Shown in pieces: positions 8,701-62,831 of a stretch of DNA of 64,000 nucleotides. The DNA comes from an uncultured Coriobacteriaceae bacterium (GTDB lineage: Bacteria > Actinomycetota > Coriobacteriia > Coriobacteriales > Atopobiaceae): assembly GCA_902798915.1 (NCBI GenBank), contig CADBYM010000001.1, positions 62,001 to 126,000 of the forward strand, in the 5' to 3' direction. A program made the position numbers and the translations under genes. Numbering within the stretch: the stretch's first letter is position 1; the number at the start of each line of letters is the position of its first letter. A model generated the notes under the pieces. The model did not search any database and was not told the origin of the DNA. It was given only the letters and a program-made list of their open reading frames with translations.

Positions 8701-11700
8701 ACGCTGCGGCGGGCACTGTCGAGCACGTATCTTCCCAGAACGACGGCTTTGATGGGACGAAGATCTTGAACTTGTCCTTCCACGTGGATGGCCTTAGCCC
8801 CTTCGCCCTAACGGTTCTAAGCAACAAGTACCATGACGACCAGTTCTGGTATGAGCTGAACACAGACGACCCGAAGAACATCACTGCCACCATAACTGGC
8901 ATCTATGACGGTGATTCCCAGGATAATCCCGTCACCAGGCTTGATTTTACTGGTGTGACCCACGATGCAAACGCCTTTAAGGTGGTGGGCTTCTCGGATA
9001 GTGCGCTCGATACGGAGAGCAACTCCTCCGCCATTCCAGGCAACAAGAGCGTCACGAGTGTGCTGTTTACCGCAGATGGCATAATGAACACCATCCCGAA
9101 GAGCTCAACGAACTATCAGTACGTGGTACCCGAAGGCCTGTTTGCGGGTTGCACAAATTTGGAGAACGTTCAGTTCGGCGAACAGGAGAATACCTCACTA
9201 AGCAGACAGCTGAGTCTTGGCAAGAATGTCTTCAAGGATTGCGCCAATATGAAGACGTTCGTTAGCCACATTGCCAGAACGTTTGTCAACGCGAGTGCTT
9301 TCGAAGGATGTACTGGCTTGGAGACAGTGGTATTCACTGGCATGAGTAATTCGTCCGGACATTCGAGCATCAGTGAAGGTGCCTTCGCGGCTGCCACTGG
9401 CCTCAAGTATCTGCGGTTGGACGATGCGTATGCCGTAAACGACAGAGCCTTTAATGCCACTGCGGGCACGGCTTTCGTTACTAAAGGTGCGACCATAAAC
9501 TATATGGCTGATAGAATTGGCAAATTCAATAGCTATATCTACATGGGCAACAATACGGAAAGTATCTCATCGCGTTCAATGGTGAGAAATGCACCCGCCG
9601 TGGCCTACATCGCCTATCCGGTAGCCGACCAGTATTCCAACTATGTGGAACTGATAGAGCACTCTCATTCCAACTTGAAGGATCTTTACTTCGACTGCGA
9701 GCGCAGCCTCTTCGGTGAGCATGCAGCCGCCCTGGATGATGCGGCCGCGACGAAGGGCATTACGCTCCACTACAATAGCAACGTCTTTGAGCGTGCCTTG
9801 CATCTTGATGGCGTAAAGGGCAATGACTCCAGTGCTACCGGCTCTTACGAAAAGCCTTTCAAGACGTATGCCGCGCTGAAGGAGGCATGGCTTGTCGCTG
9901 GCTCACCCGATTCAGCAGTCGAGGAGACTGACGAGGTCATTGCGCCCATCGTCAATCCTGCGCTGGAGGCAGTGGGCATCAATGAGAAATGCGGTAAGTT
10001 CGAGGACACGTACCACACAGTGCAGAAAGCCTACATCACGAACGCGGTGACCATCTCCTCTCCGGAAACATGGGACGGTGGAATCGCCCTGTACCGCTTC
10101 CCCGGCGACAACAAGCACGATTCCTTTACCGGCACCATGGTCGAGAATAACAGCACCCTAACCTTGCGCGATGTGGTGTTGGACGGTAGCGGCGAGCCTG
10201 CTGCGGGCTATAGCGAAGGTGTGGATGAGAGTCCGAACGCTTCTTTGAACAGTGCTTCCTATGTTTCGGCGACCGGCCCGATTGTTTACTCTCAAGGCAC
10301 TTTGAACATCGAACAAGGCGCGGTTGTGCGCAACAACAAGCGAACCAGCGCTGTCTATCCGAACGGGGCAGGCGGCATCTACGCTGGCGGCACGGTCAAT
10401 ATGACTGGTGGCGAGATTGCCGGCAATACAGGTCTATATGGTGGTGGCATTGAGGTTTTGGGCTCGAATGCGAGATTCACGATGTCGGGTGGCGTGATTA
10501 AGAACAACGTGGCCAACGGCAAGAGCGAGGGCTTCGGCGGTGGCGTTTTGGTCGCTTCTGGTGCAACGATGGATCTCTCCGGAGGAACCATCTCCGGGAA
10601 CCGTGTCATCAATCCCCAGAGTGGCTCACTAGGCTCAGGAGGTGGTGGCATCGCGGTCGGCGGTGGCGTCAGCGGCATGTGCCAGGGGGCTATGCTGAAT
10701 ATGACTGGTGGTACGGTAGCTAACAACTTCGCCCAAAACAATGGCGGCGGCATCTCCATCCAAGACAACTGCACTGCCAACATCAGCGGTGGCTCCATCA
10801 CGGGCAACCATGCTCAGTCCGGCATGTTCGGTGGTGGCGGTATCTACGTCAATGGTAACCGTGCCGAGACCGATGGAGAGCTGAACCTAACTAATGTACT
10901 GATTACGCAAAACACATCTGAACAAGAGGGTGGCGGCCTAGCCGGCTGCGCCACCTCAGATACATCCGTTTACGCTATTGATGGCGGCGCAATCTACAAC
11001 AACACTTCCGAAGATAACTCAGATGTATATATTTCTCTCGCGCTGACTGCTCCCAGCTATGTCGATACCATGAAGGGTCATGTGACTCCCTACATGTTCA
11101 ACGGTGCGGCCTGCAATTGGACCGACGTGTATAACAATCACAAGCCAGTGACGCTAGCCCAGTTGGCGAACATCCGCACCCTATCACATGATTCAGAAAT
11201 CGGACTTAAGGCAAATCCCACAGGTGATCAGCCCGCGACTGCTGCAGTGACCATAACCAACAACACCTCCGGTACCAAGGGTGGTGGTATCGGCTCCAAC
11301 GGTACGGTGAATATCGGTCATATACCGGACGACAAAGAGCTTTCCTGGACGCCTGAAGTCAACAAGGTCCTCTATAGCCGCGACATGAAGGAAGACGAGA
11401 CGTTTACCTTCAAAGTCTATGAGGAGAAGGTTGGTCAGGGCTTCAACTTTTGGTGGACGAAGTATGAGGATGTGCCGGTCGGCATTGGAAGTGTAACTGG
11501 CATTGTGGACAGCGTGTCCAAGAAGATCGGTTTCGATTCAATCAACTTGGGTACCATTTCCGGCTCTGCGGTAGGCAGCACACGTACCTTCCTGTTCGTG
11601 GAGGACAAGCCCGCAGCTGACTCTGATTTGATGGTACCCAACAAGTACTTAGCCATCACGGTGATCATTGCCACAAAGTGGGATGAAGCTGCAAAAGAGG

Positions 11701-39796: not shown

Positions 39797-41200
39797 ATGG
39801 GTCAAACCAGCAGGCATGGAAGGGGGCGATTCGCGGTCGCGCTCTGTGCGCTCGCGTGTGCGCTGACGCTTCTCGCGCCGACTGCCGCCTTTGGCCTCAC
39901 CACCAACAAGGCGACCGCGCGTCCCAACGAGGACGGTGGCTCCAGCGTCATCGGCGGCCTGCCGACGCGCCTCACGTGGGAGGGAACGGTAGACGAGGGC
40001 GAAGAGGTCTCGTCCGTTACGCTCGTGCTGCCCGAGGGCAGTTCGTTTGACGGCACGACCACTAAGGTGACGGTGCTCGAGGGCCTCTCGCGCGCCCAGC
40101 TCGAGGGTGAGGTAAAGCCTGCGACACAAAGCCTCGTAGTGGTCTTCTCGAAGCCTGCGACCGCGGGACTGCTCCTGCGACTCGAGGTCGAGGGCGTGCT
40201 CTTTCCGTCCGAAGGTGGCGACGTAGTCGTACGTGGCACCTACGTCAACCAGAACGGAGAGCAGGACTTGGCAGAATCGAAGCCCATCGCCACCATCGCG
40301 AACACGCCACTTCAGGCGTTGCTCGCATCGCTTGACGCCAACCCCGTCGTCGAGGCGTGGAACTCGAGCCCGTTCCTCGGCATGTTCTTCAAGCCCCAGC
40401 TTCTGGTGACGGCGTTTGCGACGCTCATTCCCGGATGGCTGCTCTGCCTGCTCATCGTGTGCATCGCGTACCCGTTCGCCATCATCTTGGGCCTTATCTT
40501 TGCCCTCATGAAGATCTCGCGCAACCGGCTCATCCGTGCCATCGCGATCATCTACGTCAACGTGCTACGTGGCACGCCGCTCTTCCTGCAGATTTACATC
40601 ATGTTCTTCGGCTTGCCGATGATGAACATCAACATCGACAACAACGTGCTCGGCGTCATCGTCATCGCGATCAACGCCTCTGCCTACCTCGCCGAGATCT
40701 TCCGCGCAGGCATCGAGTCGATTCCGCCTGGGCAGTACGAGGCGGCCTCGAGTCTGGGCATGGGCCACATGATGACGATGGTCAACATCATCCTTCCGCA
40801 GACCATTCGCCGCGTCATCCCCACGGTGACGAGCGACTTCATCACCTCGTACAAAGACACGTCTCTGCTCTCGAGCGTGGGTGTTATGGAGCTCATGATG
40901 TTCGCGAAGAACCTCACGTCGGTCTCGGGCAACATGACCCCCTACGTCGCCGCAGCCATCTTCTACCTCATCGTGACGTTGCCGCTCATCAAGGGCGTGA
41001 CCATCATCGAGAAGCGCATGGCCCGCTCCGAGCGGGGAGGCGGTCCGCGCCCCAAGGTCAAGGCAAAGACGGCAGAAGGCGTCACGGGCGACCCGGCCGA
41101 GAAGGGGGCGGAGCCCTCGCTCGTCGAGGCCCTGAGCGCCCCGTTCCGTCCGGCAACCACCGACATTGCGGGTATGGGAGGTGTCGCGGATGTTCAATAA
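39797..41200 (+). CDS. amino-acid ABC transporter permease with N-terminal extracytoplasmic domain
   Basis: A 467-residue protein. Residues ~195-425 form a His/Glu/Arg-type permease with the EAA-loop region [20 protein letters not shown] and the GTPLFLQIY motif. It is unusual in its N-terminus: a cleavable-looking signal sequence ([18 protein letters not shown]...) and ~135 residues of beta-rich, Thr/Val/Gly-rich sequence ([20 protein letters not shown]) precede the first transport helix. Standard permeases of this family are ~220-240 residues and lack this. The domain could contact the binding proteins. A charged cytoplasmic tail (~50 residues) follows. AGGAAGGG precedes ATG 39797. The stop overlaps the ATPase start by 11 bases. 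Confidence 0.9.
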
Positions 41201-42071
41201 GGCAAATGGTTCGCGGGGATTCGGCACCGAGGCGCGCCATGTGCCCCCGGCGCTCGACGCCACCGAGGCAGCCCTGCAGGCCCACGAGCGCGACAAGACG
41301 CTCACGAAGCATCACTTCGAGCCCGAAGAGCACCCGTGCGTGCGCATCGAGCACCTGATGAAGACCTTCGACGGCGAGACGCGGGTCCTTACCGACGTCA
41401 ATCTCACGGTGTGGCCCGGCGAGGTCGTGTGCGTGCTGGGACCGTCAGGCTCCGGTAAGTCCACGATGCTGCGCTGCATCAACCTGCTCGAGACCCCGAC
41501 GGCAGGCCACATCCTCATTGAGGACCACGAGATTACCGGTCCCCTTCCGATTAAGGAAGTCAACAAGTTGCGCCAAAACTTGGGCATGGTGTTCCAGAGC
41601 TTCAACCTCTTCCCGCACCTCACGGCGAAGGGCAACGTGATGATTGGCCAGACGAAGGTGCTGAAGAAGAGCAAGGAGGAGGCCGAGGTCGAGGCCCTCA
41701 AGCAGCTTGAGGCCGTCGGTCTGCTCGATCGCGCCGACTTCAAGCCAGCACAGCTCTCGGGCGGACAGCAGCAGCGCGTGGCCATCGCACGTGCCGTCGC
41801 CATGCATCCCGACATCCTGCTCTTTGACGAGCCGACGTCCGCGCTCGACCCTGAGCTCGTGCGTGGCGTTCTCGACGTCATGCGCGATCTTGCCGAGAAT
41901 GGCGGCATGACCATGATCGTGGTCACGCACGAGATGGGCTTCGCGCGCGAGGTTGCCGATCGTGTCGTCTTTATGGAGGGTGGCGTCGTGGTTGAGCAGG
42001 GCAAGCCCGATGACGTCTTCGACCATCCGCAGAACGAGCGCACGGCTCAGTTCCTCGGCAGCATCGGCTAG
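41190..42071 (+). CDS. amino-acid ABC transporter ATP-binding protein (GlnQ/ArtP-like)
   Basis: A 293-residue ATPase that energises the upstream permease. Walker A is GPSGSGKST, the Q-loop lies in [13 protein letters not shown], the signature is LSGGQQQR, Walker [13 protein letters not shown], and the switch His lies in VVTHEMGF. About 50 extra residues precede the usual start ([15 protein letters not shown]). ATG 41190 has GGGAGG 8-13 bases upstream and overlaps the permease stop, which implies translational coupling. The gene is the last of the transporter set; a convergent terminator follows at 42099. Confidence 0.93.
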
Positions 42072-42098
42072 GTCTTTGGGGCGTCTTACACCTTGTTT

Positions 42099-42123
42099 GC
42101 GAGGCTCCTTTCGGGAGCCTCGC
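42099..42123. terminator. hairpin between the ABC ATPase gene and the convergent RiPP precursor gene
   Basis: A perfect 10-bp stem (GCGAGGCTCC, 42099-42108; GGAGCCTCGC, 42114-42123) with loop TTTCG. It lies between two convergent genes and can serve both, although T-runs are poor. Confidence 0.65.
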
Positions 42124-42203
42124 CCCCCGTCGTTGTCGACTTCGTACGCCTGTGGGGCCGGGGGCCGCGGGCTACTGTTGGCGCGCCTCCGAAATGGGCG
42201 AAT

Positions 42204-42626
42204 CTATTGCATGTGCGCTTGATCGCAATAGTAGAGGCCTCCGGAGCATGCGAAGCTTCTAATGCACTTATAATAACGCGACATCTGTTTATAAAGACCT
42301 CTGCAATATTCATCCATATTGTACGGAATCAGTCTAGAAAGAACTGGACAGTATTCATCCGTATTGAAGCCGCCGGCCACGCCCGCGAGCTCGTCGAGGC
42401 CCAGCTCGCCGTCGTCGACCTCCTCGCGCTCCGCGACGAGGCGCCCCGCGTCCTCCGCCGTCACGTCGTAGCCGAGCTCGCGGGCCGCGAGCGCCGTCGC
42501 CTCCACGTCGCCGGACGCCGCGCCCGACTCGAGCAGGCGGTCCATGGCCTCCCGCATCCTGACCTCCAGCCCCGGGTCCCGCCCGAGGTCGCGCACCATG
42601 CGCTCCAGCTCGCCGATTCCGCTCAT
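42204..42626 (-). CDS. Nif11-type RiPP precursor peptide with double-glycine leader
   Basis: A 140-residue precursor. Residues 1-86 form a helical, acidic leader of the Nif11 kind (GIGELERMVRDLGRDPGLE, ELGYDVTAEDA, then LGLDELAGVAGG). The double Gly at 85-86 is the expected cleavage site for a peptidase-containing ABC exporter. The core (87-140) has 54 residues with five Cys (core positions 7, 22, 35, 41, 48), many Tyr, and a duplicated N-x-DEYC motif. ATG 42624-42626 has AAGGTGG upstream. The leader DNA is very GC-rich, the core DNA much richer in A and T. No lanthionine synthetase, radical SAM enzyme or peptidase-ABC exporter lies in the window, so maturation must be by enzymes elsewhere, or the gene is an orphan. 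The modification class cannot be told from the precursor. Confidence 0.82.
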   Translation of the reverse strand: MSGIGELERMVRDLGRDPGLEVRMREAMDRLLESGAASGDVEATALAARELGYDVTAEDAGRLVAEREEVDDGELGLDELAGVAGGFNTDEYCPVLSRLIPYNMDEYCRGLYKQMSRYYKCIRSFACSGGLYYCDQAHMQ

Positions 42627-43082
42627 CGCCAGCCACCTTCTCCGTGCGGCGCCTGCCGGCGCCGCGCCAATGCGTCTGAAGCATGGTCTCACGACGGCGC
42701 CCCCCATGTCAAACCGGGCGTGCCGCCCCGGACGAGGGCCTGTGGGACGCCTCCCATCGCATGGCGGCTGCGCGCGGTCGCGCCCCAGAGGCACAGGCGA
42801 CCGGCCGCCAACGCCTCGGGAGGGCAATTCCAAGCACTCCTGGGACGGCCCCTCCCCCGGGGCGCCAGGTTGCGGGCGGCGACGCCGCCGCCCGTCGCCA
42901 GAGAACCCTTGGCCTCAGGCCGGGGGGTGCTGGAATGGGGTCTGTTGGGGGGCAGTTCCCCGACGATGCCCCTATCTCAAGTTAACACGTGAAATATCCC
43001 ATATGGGGACTGATATCCTAATTCTGTGGTACTATGCAGCGTTGTGTTTCCACGCTGTTTCGATAGACTTGAGAGCTGTCCC
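42627..43082. other. GC-rich, hairpin-rich region between the RiPP precursor and the regulator gene
   Basis: These 456 bases hold no supported gene. Frames are open on both strands because of high GC, but have no ribosome sites or family motifs. Besides the hairpin at 42646, a 9-bp stem (CGGGCGGCG, 42873-42881, with 42886-42894) is present. From about 42975 the sequence turns abruptly AT-rich (AACACGTGAAATATCCCATA), which is where divergent promoters would be expected. Confidence 0.5.
42646..42665 (-). promoter_or_regulatory. GC hairpin in the 5' untranslated region of the RiPP precursor
   Basis: An 8-bp perfect stem (GCGGCGCC, 42646-42653, with GGCGCCGC, 42658-42665) lies about 20 bases ahead of the precursor start. 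It may limit ribosome access or act as an attenuator. Confidence 0.4.
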
Positions 43083-43757
43083 ATGCACCATAAGAACATA
43101 TTGCTTATTGCGCGATCTACCCGCCACCACGACCGCATGCGCGAGCTGTCGCACGTTCTGGACGTTTCCATCGCGCTTGCCTTCCCCGACACCTTCTCGC
43201 AGGCCATCTCCTCAGGCCACGAGTTCGACCTTGTCATCCTTGATGCCCTCGGGCTTGACGAGTCGACGCTTAACGCGGTTGATGCCTATGTGGCCGAGAA
43301 TGGCTTCATCCCCACGCTCGTCGTGCAGGATGCCGACAAGCTCGCGAGCCTTCGGATGCCCGTGCAGGGTCGTAACGACTTTATCCTCTCGTCTGCCGGG
43401 GCCGCCGAGTTCGAGATGCGCTGCAAGCTCCTGCTGTGGCCGGGCGAGGAGAGCGCTCCTGCCGACATCGTTACCGTGGACAACATGACCATCAACTTGG
43501 CTACGTATCAGGTCTACATCGACGAGGAGCCGGTGGACCTCACGCTCATGGAGTACTCGTTGCTCTCCTTCCTGGCCACGCATCCATCGCGTGCCTACTC
43601 GCGCGAGACGCTTCTTCATCGCGTGTGGGGATTCGAGTATTGTGGCGGCACTCGTACGGTGGACGTGCACATTCGTCGCGTGCGCTCGAAGGTTGGCCCA
43701 CAGGTGGCTGCCCATATCGTGACGGTGCGCGGCGTCGGATACCTCTTCAAGCTGTAG
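43083..43757 (+). CDS. GlnR-like response-regulator-type winged-helix transcription factor
   Basis: A 224-residue DNA-binding protein. The N-terminal ~115 residues have a receiver-like fold but lack the acidic pair normally found after strand 1 (NILLIARS instead of a DD motif). NDFILSSAGAAEFEMRCKLLL resembles the PAE-type end of actinobacterial GlnR receivers. The C-terminal OmpR/PhoB winged helix is typical (DLTLMEYSLLSFLATHPSRA, SRETLLHRVWG, RTVDVHIRRVRSKV, VRGVGYLFKL). There is no adjacent histidine kinase. Atypical GlnR regulators work without phosphorylation and control nitrogen genes; the amino-acid transporter nearby would suit that, but this is inference. ATG 43083 is chosen because it starts the receiver strand; its ribosome site is weak (GAGAG). 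Confidence 0.8.
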   Translation: MHHKNILLIARSTRHHDRMRELSHVLDVSIALAFPDTFSQAISSGHEFDLVILDALGLDESTLNAVDAYVAENGFIPTLVVQDADKLASLRMPVQGRNDFILSSAGAAEFEMRCKLLLWPGEESAPADIVTVDNMTINLATYQVYIDEEPVDLTLMEYSLLSFLATHPSRAYSRETLLHRVWGFEYCGGTRTVDVHIRRVRSKVGPQVAAHIVTVRGVGYLFKL

Positions 43758-61739: not shown

Positions 61740-61774
61740 AGCGACGCGGAGGGAGCGGTTCTCTTCGCGTCGCT
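61740..61774. terminator. convergent hairpin after trpA
   Basis: AGCGACGCG (61740-61748) pairs perfectly with CGCGTCGCT (61766-61774). It ends the trp operon and reaches two bases into the stop of the opposing gene. Confidence 0.65.
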
Positions 61775-62810
61775 ACGCCCGCGCTTGGATTCCGGCCATG
61801 AGGTAGGCCTTGGCGTCGAGTGGCTCGCCGTCGCGCCAACGCAGCTTGATGAACGTGGGGAAGCAGTAGAGTCGAAGGTCCTCGTCATCTCGCGAGAGCC
61901 GCTTGGCAAAGGTCGTCTCTTCGAGCGTTCGCCAGCGTTCGTCAGCAAGCCCCCAGGCTTCCACCTGACGCATCAGGTCGCCGGCGGCGCCATCGACGCG
62001 GTAGCTCTTCTCAGTGTCGTCGCCCGGGAAGGTGAAGCGCAGGCTCGCGCCGAACGTGCTGCCCAAGCGTCCCGCCGTGCCGACCTCAAGCTGAAACTCC
62101 AGTGCGAAGGGCGTGCGTGCCAGGTATTGGCAACGCTCGAGGAGCGTCTCGTTCATGTCCTCGATGCCGACTAGGCGCAGATGCTCCTCAAGCAGCGTGA
62201 TGTCATCCGCATAGGCGCGCTGCGTCTTGGTGCTCGGTATGCACTCGACGTGCATGGGTGGGACGGTGTCGTCTGTCGCTCGTGCCTCTCTGGGCGAATC
62301 GGCCCACCTCCTCGTCGGGAAGACCCCCGTGTAGCATGGGTACCAATCCCGAGGCAGGCGCTCCCGCAGCGTCCGATACGCCTCAATGGCCTCTGGTGCT
62401 CCGGCAGCCTCAAGGAAGCCGTACGTCGTCATTGGATCGTCGCTGTTCACAAGGAGCTGTATGGCTGGAGCGTTGGCGCCTCTAGAGCCGATGTCCCAGC
62501 TCAGCGCCAACTGGCGCACGTTGTCCTGCCGCGCGAACCACGCGAAGGTCTCGGGATACCCGCCCGTCGTGCTTGGGTCGAAGCACGCGTTTGGGTCGAG
62601 TGCGTCGCGAGAGGTGAGTGCGTGCAGATCGAACCACGGATCTCCCAGAAGCGGGAGCTCGAACCATAGCTCGGGGAATGCGCTGCTCGCGTTGCTGTGC
62701 CGAAATGCCTCAAACGCCTGCGGTGCGCAGTCGCCAAAGAGCACGCGGTCACGACCGTTCTTGGCGGCCAGTGCGTAGATGAGCTGATACAGCATTTCGT
62801 TGCTCAGCAT
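61773..62810 (-). CDS. uncharacterised conserved-looking protein
   Basis: I do not recognise the function. The 345-residue protein is soluble, without signal peptide or membrane helices. Notable blocks are WFELPLLGDPWFDLHAL, PETFAWFARQDNVRQLALSWD, YPCYTGVFPTRRW and YCFPTFIKLRWRDGEP. Regular length, a good ribosome site (AAGGAG) ahead of the ATG at 62808-62810, and many Trp/Phe/Pro argue for a real, folded protein. It lies 21 bases downstream of the acyltransferase gene on the same strand, so the two are probably co-transcribed. I recall that this ELPLLG-type sequence occurs as hypothetical proteins in other gut Firmicutes and Actinobacteria, but cannot confirm that here. Confidence 0.75.
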   Translation of the reverse strand: MLSNEMLYQLIYALAAKNGRDRVLFGDCAPQAFEAFRHSNASSAFPELWFELPLLGDPWFDLHALTSRDALDPNACFDPSTTGGYPETFAWFARQDNVRQLALSWDIGSRGANAPAIQLLVNSDDPMTTYGFLEAAGAPEAIEAYRTLRERLPRDWYPCYTGVFPTRRWADSPREARATDDTVPPMHVECIPSTKTQRAYADDITLLEEHLRLVGIEDMNETLLERCQYLARTPFALEFQLEVGTAGRLGSTFGASLRFTFPGDDTEKSYRVDGAAGDLMRQVEAWGLADERWRTLEETTFAKRLSRDDEDLRLYCFPTFIKLRWRDGEPLDAKAYLMAGIQARA

Positions 62811-62831
62811 GTGCCTCTCCTTACGGCGCAC

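Follow-up and report, generated by a model that had tools for sequence, protein, structure and literature searches.

Nif11-type precursor systems and the window gene

Precursors with Nif11 and nitrile-hydratase leaders, located far from their enzymes and carrying hypervariable cores, have been described together with NHLM exporters as a case of natural combinatorial biosynthesis (Haft et al., 2010; PMC2887384). In the prochlorosin system, one LanM serves a set of Nif11 precursors scattered in the same way (PMC10783134). The gene analysed here, P0001, lies in a window (the whole stretch of DNA that was analysed, 64,000 nucleotides) that is part of contig C1 of an uncultured Coriobacteriaceae bacterium, whose genome is a 3.99 Mb draft of 119 contigs. 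P0001 resembles the N11P/Nif11-like leader RiPPs (TIGR03798) in its long helical leader, its Gly-Gly leader end followed by a hypervariable core, and its position away from modification and export genes in a genome with NHLM exporters (PMC2887384); a probable maturation enzyme and a GG-peptidase exporter are encoded within the same genome. Unlike the N11P model members, it scores under the curated cut-off, belongs to a leader subfamily of its own, and has a putative radical SAM (rSAM) partner from an unnamed clade. Prochlorosins and synechococsins (ProcA/ProcM, SyncA/SyncM) are similar in having tens of scattered precursors with conserved leaders, unrelated cores and an enzyme acting in trans (PMC10783134). 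Here, about 13 subfamily precursors stand against one complete clade-A rSAM enzyme, which would have to be promiscuous. Unlike in the prochlorosin systems, the modifier is most likely an rSAM/SPASM enzyme and not a LanM, the host is not a cyanobacterium, and several leader families and enzyme types occur in parallel within one genome. We conclude that the window gene is of the known scattered-Nif11-precursor kind. The rSAM clade, the core motif and their pairing are new as far as the libraries and literature searched show, and the literature search returned no paper naming Nif11, radical SAM and Coriobacteria together.

Precursor gene, leader and core

The gene and its leader comprise the following features, each given with its evidence.

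42204..42626, minus strand: Nif11-type RiPP precursor gene P0001, a 140-aa ORF (translation; 17 own-genome matches)
42369..42626, minus strand: P0001 leader, residues 1-86, ending LDELAGVAGG (alignment A1, helical model, TIGR03798 family match)
42369..42374, minus strand: Gly85-Gly86, predicted C39 peptidase-exporter cleavage site (sequence; GG invariant in alignment A1)
42633..42643, minus strand: probable ribosome binding site GGAGAAGGTGG (sequence)

The original prediction described a Nif11-like helical leader with the double-Gly end LDELAGVAGG and a 54-residue core that contains five Cys and has its N-x-DEYC motif duplicated, and both descriptions are borne out. The 86-aa leader is helical in the predicted model, and TIGR03798 is matched by all 11 members of the leader subfamily (best 3.2e-8); ORF translation gives the core, in which the two copies read NTDEYC and NMDEYC. 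The start codon is ATG, with the purine-rich ribosome binding site directly 5' of it. Because P0001 by itself is under the curated cut-offs of both PF07862 (E=0.12, 13.2 versus 23.8 bits) and TIGR03798 (E=0.018, 15.3 versus 32.3 bits), it was filed as Nif11-like and not as a model member. The paralogues C108 and C68 exceed the Pfam Nif11 cut-off when counted with their frame. P0001 is not a chance ORF, since 17 places in its own genome match it, the best paralogue at 5e-20; identity to the paralogues across leader and core is just 36-45%. An AlphaFold model predicts helices with pLDDT >90 across residues 11-60 and a disordered core, and its fold had no match in the PDB. A promoter search upstream of P0001 and an Rfam search around it gave no match, and scanning P0001 and alignment A1 against the named genome collection returned no relatives. 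Most likely, this small gene encodes the raw material for a secreted, enzyme-crosslinked peptide.

The core and its motifs are located as follows.

42207..42368, minus strand: P0001 core, residues 87-140, five Cys, AT-rich (translation, fourfold-site GC)
42348..42365, minus strand: NTDEYC, first copy of the duplicated motif (translation, shuffle test)
42303..42320, minus strand: NMDEYC, second copy, running on into CRGLY, that is C-x3-Y (translation, shuffle test)
42246..42266, minus strand: CIRSFAC, the subfamily core motif C-x3-[FWY]-x-C (motif count in 18 cores)

A 6-mer repeat as good as NTDEYC/NMDEYC arose in 2 of 1000 shuffles of the P0001 core. The motif C-x3-[FWY]-x-C occurs in 28 copies across 18 subfamily cores (shuffled mean 0.58, maximum 4 in 5000 trials), a contrast that overstates the evidence because related cores are not independent. 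It was also carried by the two genomes found later, G165 and G354 (p=0.0001 against shuffles). P0001 itself holds one copy, CIRSFAC, which is weak alone (p=0.065). Its core is atypical for the subfamily, with a single canonical motif and no GHxxWC segment; a C108-type core reads VGFLCDTLWYCMKSLM. Neither this motif nor the insertion and the leader/core evolutionary split described below featured in the original prediction.

Within the motif, aromatic and Cys stand i, i+2 apart, as do the linked residues of triceptides (three-residue cyclophanes, 3-CyFEs; PMC11002830), spacing being the one property compared. The triceptide crosslink is a C-C bond from an aromatic ring to C-beta at i+2, whereas the motif would offer Cys as the partner and has a further conserved Cys, four residues ahead of the aromatic; by this analogy Cys may be a new crosslink partner, with a thioether equally possible. 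In ranthipeptides, such as those with PapB Cys-Asp thioethers (PMC11002830, PMC9413430), an rSAM/SPASM enzyme likewise acts on regularly spaced Cys, but here the position four residues past the Cys has no conserved acidic acceptor and is aromatic, so the motif does not follow PapB's Cys-Asp spacing. Ranthipeptides and sactipeptides are defined by a Cys thioether to a non-alpha and an alpha carbon, respectively.

Candidate maturation enzymes and exporters elsewhere in the genome

P0001 had been called an orphan with no RiPP enzyme or exporter near it. For the families searched this holds: the window has no NHLM exporter above cut-off, no LanM and no P0003-type rSAM. The term suits the location, where the gene stands alone, but not the genome, where sister precursors, enzymes and exporters lie on other contigs. 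A genome-wide check for leaders, RiPP enzymes and peptidase-ABC genes, which had been proposed, identified about 37 Nif11-type places on 22 contigs (after dropping two matches inside long frames), about 13 of them, spread over 8 contigs, with the P0001 leader subfamily. It also recovered an rSAM/SPASM maturase, five LanM enzymes and seven NHLM-type peptidase-exporters above the TIGR03796 cut-off. A different Nif11 precursor type (L043:1521-2054 on contig C9, L072 and L082) has a core ending in zinc-ribbon-like CSRCGATKDRSV and is not hypervariable, because it is conserved across congeners.

A further gene of the window belongs to a family that recurs at such loci.

61773..62831, minus strand: uncharacterised ~340-aa family gene, relative of P0006 (family recurs beside LanM and rSAM loci)

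Its relatives are P0006 (L097:3082-4098), L051:5755-6759 and 10280-11359, and L111:11371-13757. P0006 and one relative had no Pfam match, and P0006 had no NCBIfam match. The member inside the window is near trp genes, and its link to the precursor is tentative.

In the congeners G009 and G011, precursors with the subfamily leader adjoin a 474-475-aa radical SAM/SPASM protein. At the G011 locus, the HlyD-like, peptidase-ABC and second ABC genes of an NHLM exporter adjoin the enzyme (TIGR03796, 908.8 bits, over cut-off; TIGR03797, 701.9, just under; TIGR03794, weak). The own-genome orthologue (G000:C2:188156-189556) lies near a contig end and is 70% identical to the G009 enzyme. Just upstream of it, a short frame reading ACWKDYACLKWYHTA and containing CWKDYAC is a remnant resembling a core. 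Contig C34 ends within a second rSAM (86% identical), whose 29 C-terminal residues are followed immediately by a subfamily precursor. When 397 genomes of the order Coriobacteriales were scanned for clade A of the rSAM, it turned up in just two further genomes, G165 and G354. A subfamily precursor adjoining the rSAM had been predicted beforehand and was then seen in both (2/2), 150-160 nt upstream and with the core motifs CLTAWHC or CFVAWHC/CWSNYKC. Orthologues of the C2 enzyme, 60-69% identical, are beside subfamily precursors in four other genomes (G009, G011, G165 and G354), which supports the earlier proposal that P0001 may be modified by enzymes encoded elsewhere. Leader and enzyme do not always occur together: leader-like matches are present in G355, G328, G346 and G363, and clade-A rSAM was not found there. 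The figure used is this narrower clade-A count; an early count (12 rSAM genomes, all with precursors) was dropped because it mixed several rSAM clades and leader types.

In a tree of enzymes other than those of G165 and G354, which are 63 and 60% identical to the own-genome enzyme, the own-genome, G009 and G011 rSAMs form one clade (support 100/100). The enzyme has CxxxCxxC plus seven further invariant Cys, which fit SPASM. Its predicted structure (mean pLDDT 90.5) resembles SuiB, SkfB, PqqE and ChlB, all of them rSAM enzymes acting on peptides. The nearest solved structures include SuiB, SkfB and CteB, with SkfB the nearest by sequence, and in the model three N-terminal strands plus helices look like a leader-binding RRE domain. 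Fold, CxxxCxxC, SPASM cysteines and RRE-like N-terminal part are all likenesses to SuiB, SkfB, CteB and PapB. Unlike these, the candidate reaches no NCBIfam equivalog (best 99 bits against a cut-off of 400), and the core motif differs. The crosslink may be new, because no named family in the libraries searched corresponds to the enzyme clade or to the motif. A scan for viral contigs with the rSAM found none.

Several related loci were observed alongside these. A Cys-less sister type of precursor (L040:8581-8853, L065, L067, L068 and L069) has the core NFFADLEEVLRRIFADD, or just NKDEYY in the own genome; it also occurs in genomes without clade-A rSAM and may have a different role. What is probably a decayed RiPP locus lies on contig C45, where a truncated remnant of an rSAM from the same broad family (L111:9836-10168) neighbours short peptides that end in SGG. 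Other clades of the rSAM family occur with Nif11 precursors (L076, L085, L090, L071, L084 and L086, in G028, G001, G034 and G010) whose cores instead have motifs of the C-x-[LIV]-[IVG]-G type; the core motif seems to change with the enzyme clade.

We consider it probable that P0001 is a RiPP precursor matured in trans, with the C2 rSAM/SPASM enzyme crosslinking the core and an NHLM-type C39 exporter cutting after Gly86. The helical Nif11-type leader would be recognised by the maturase through its RRE-like N-terminal part, and crosslinks would form at the Cys/aromatic motifs, at CIRSFAC and perhaps EYC-RGLY. A peptidase ABC exporter encoded elsewhere would then cleave the leader and export the product; the exporters at C19 and C5 are closest to that of the G011 rSAM locus (68 and 63%). 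No enzyme adjoins P0001 as it does the relatives in G009, G011, G165 and G354, so the pairing with the C2 enzyme rests on leader homology. A role as a narrow-spectrum bacteriocin or signal is a guess.

The original prediction named lanthionine synthetases and radical SAM proteins alike as candidate modifiers, a choice now narrowed to rSAM as most likely. If P0001 were instead a lanthipeptide, one of the five LanM enzymes would dehydrate Ser/Thr and form lanthionines with the five Cys, as ProcM does on scattered prochlorosins. The core does offer four Ser and one Thr beside its five Cys, and several LanM loci (C40, C42 and C61) have Nif11-type precursors and NHLM exporters. However, the LanM-linked precursors here bear other leaders (e.g., LKELYEKVIADD at C42), the P0001 leader subfamily adjoins rSAM and not LanM in four genomes, and what the cores conserve is a Cys/aromatic element in which no Ser/Thr is fixed. 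We regard a lanthipeptide as quite unlikely. Export by an NHLM transporter with neither rSAM nor LanM modification, the Cys forming disulfides outside, appears very improbable: it would agree with the Gly-Gly leader and with the exporters, some of the seven (C19, C25 and C5), that have no adjoining modifying enzyme, but the same leader subfamily is tied to rSAM in other genomes. Near the C19 exporter set, L163:1-3114 has repeated short segments (reading QTLPLGELK / FNSPRG) that are CRISPR-array-like.

Insertion site and the evolution of leaders and cores

The precursor is carried by an insertion between two conserved genes.

42072..42970, no strand: species-specific insertion, 899 nt, carrying the precursor (comparison with congeners)
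41166..42071, plus strand: polar amino acid ABC transporter ATPase, left flank, not part of a RiPP system (conserved in congeners)
43086..43757, plus strand: winged-helix response regulator, right flank, not part of a RiPP system (conserved in congeners)

Wherever the site was readable in a congener, the two flanking genes adjoin each other and P0001 is absent; the closest, G014 (flanks 90 and 88% identical), has 81 nt in place of the 899 nt. Examination of the insertion found no transposase, target-site duplication or terminal inverted repeat, and phage families did not match P0001, giving, like the viral contig scan, no sign of phage origin.

Leaders and cores differ in codon usage. The GC content of fourfold-degenerate sites is 508/601 in leaders and 130/225 in cores; for P0001, it is 47/47 over the leader's final 210 nt and 8/17 in the core, with ordinary window genes at 0.75-0.88. 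A core with codon usage resembling non-coding DNA, placed in a species-specific insertion, is what would be expected of a recent non-functional or silent leader duplicate fused to new DNA, a dead copy of the combinatorial set. The promoter search without a match and the existence of frameshifted relatives (C34:35088-35382) point the same way. The frame is nevertheless open, with a good ribosome binding site and an intact leader with GC-rich codons, and the core retains five Cys, the repeat and the subfamily motif. We judge a dead copy unlikely and retain P0001 as a probable precursor matured in trans.

Five near-identical leader pairs were compared, on contigs C5, C11/C34, C61/C95, C65 and C68/C108 (L050, L055, L059, L062, L038, L041, L061 and L053). 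The DNA of these leaders is ~95-99% identical, and where both sequences extend far enough this includes tens of nt 5' of the start codon. By gapped alignment, similarity is lost at the Gly-Gly codons in 3/5 pairs (C5a/C5b, C11/C34a and, within 2 nt, C61/C95); C65a/C65b remain identical for about the first 50 nt of the core, and C108/C68 have homologous but diverged cores, as is their downstream terminator. An end of leader identity exactly at Gly-Gly in 5/5 pairs was ruled out by the same alignment. Near-identical leader DNA with cores unrelated from Gly-Gly onward in three of the five pairs indicates separate evolution of leaders and cores. Plain point mutation would not account for this pattern, but leader conversion or core replacement would. 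The P0001 leader has no near-identical partner, and its best DNA match (81%) is cut by a contig end. Many of the near-identical leaders lie where contigs end, and further copies are therefore probably missing from the assembly.

A more extended reading is possible but doubtful. It holds that the RiPP system is combinatorial and that its unnamed rSAM/SPASM clade would install a new Cys-aromatic crosslink in C-x3-aromatic-x-C. New products would arise by fusion of a leader cassette (a short 5' untranslated part plus the leader), at the Gly-Gly codons, to DNA that is unrelated, AT-rich and perhaps non-coding in origin, and the window gene would be such a fusion inserted as a single unit.

A lone gene with its candidate enzyme, exporters and sister precursors on other contigs suggests a new family of peptides in this group of bacteria. 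Nif11 precursors far from their enzymes usually go without an assigned function for want of a partner that can be named. In this case relatives allow one to be proposed, and the core motif supplies testable residues. The genome is very rich in such systems, with ~37 precursor-like places, five LanM and seven NHLM exporters, and its near-identical leaders with unrelated cores make it testable how combinatorial RiPP systems gain new cores.
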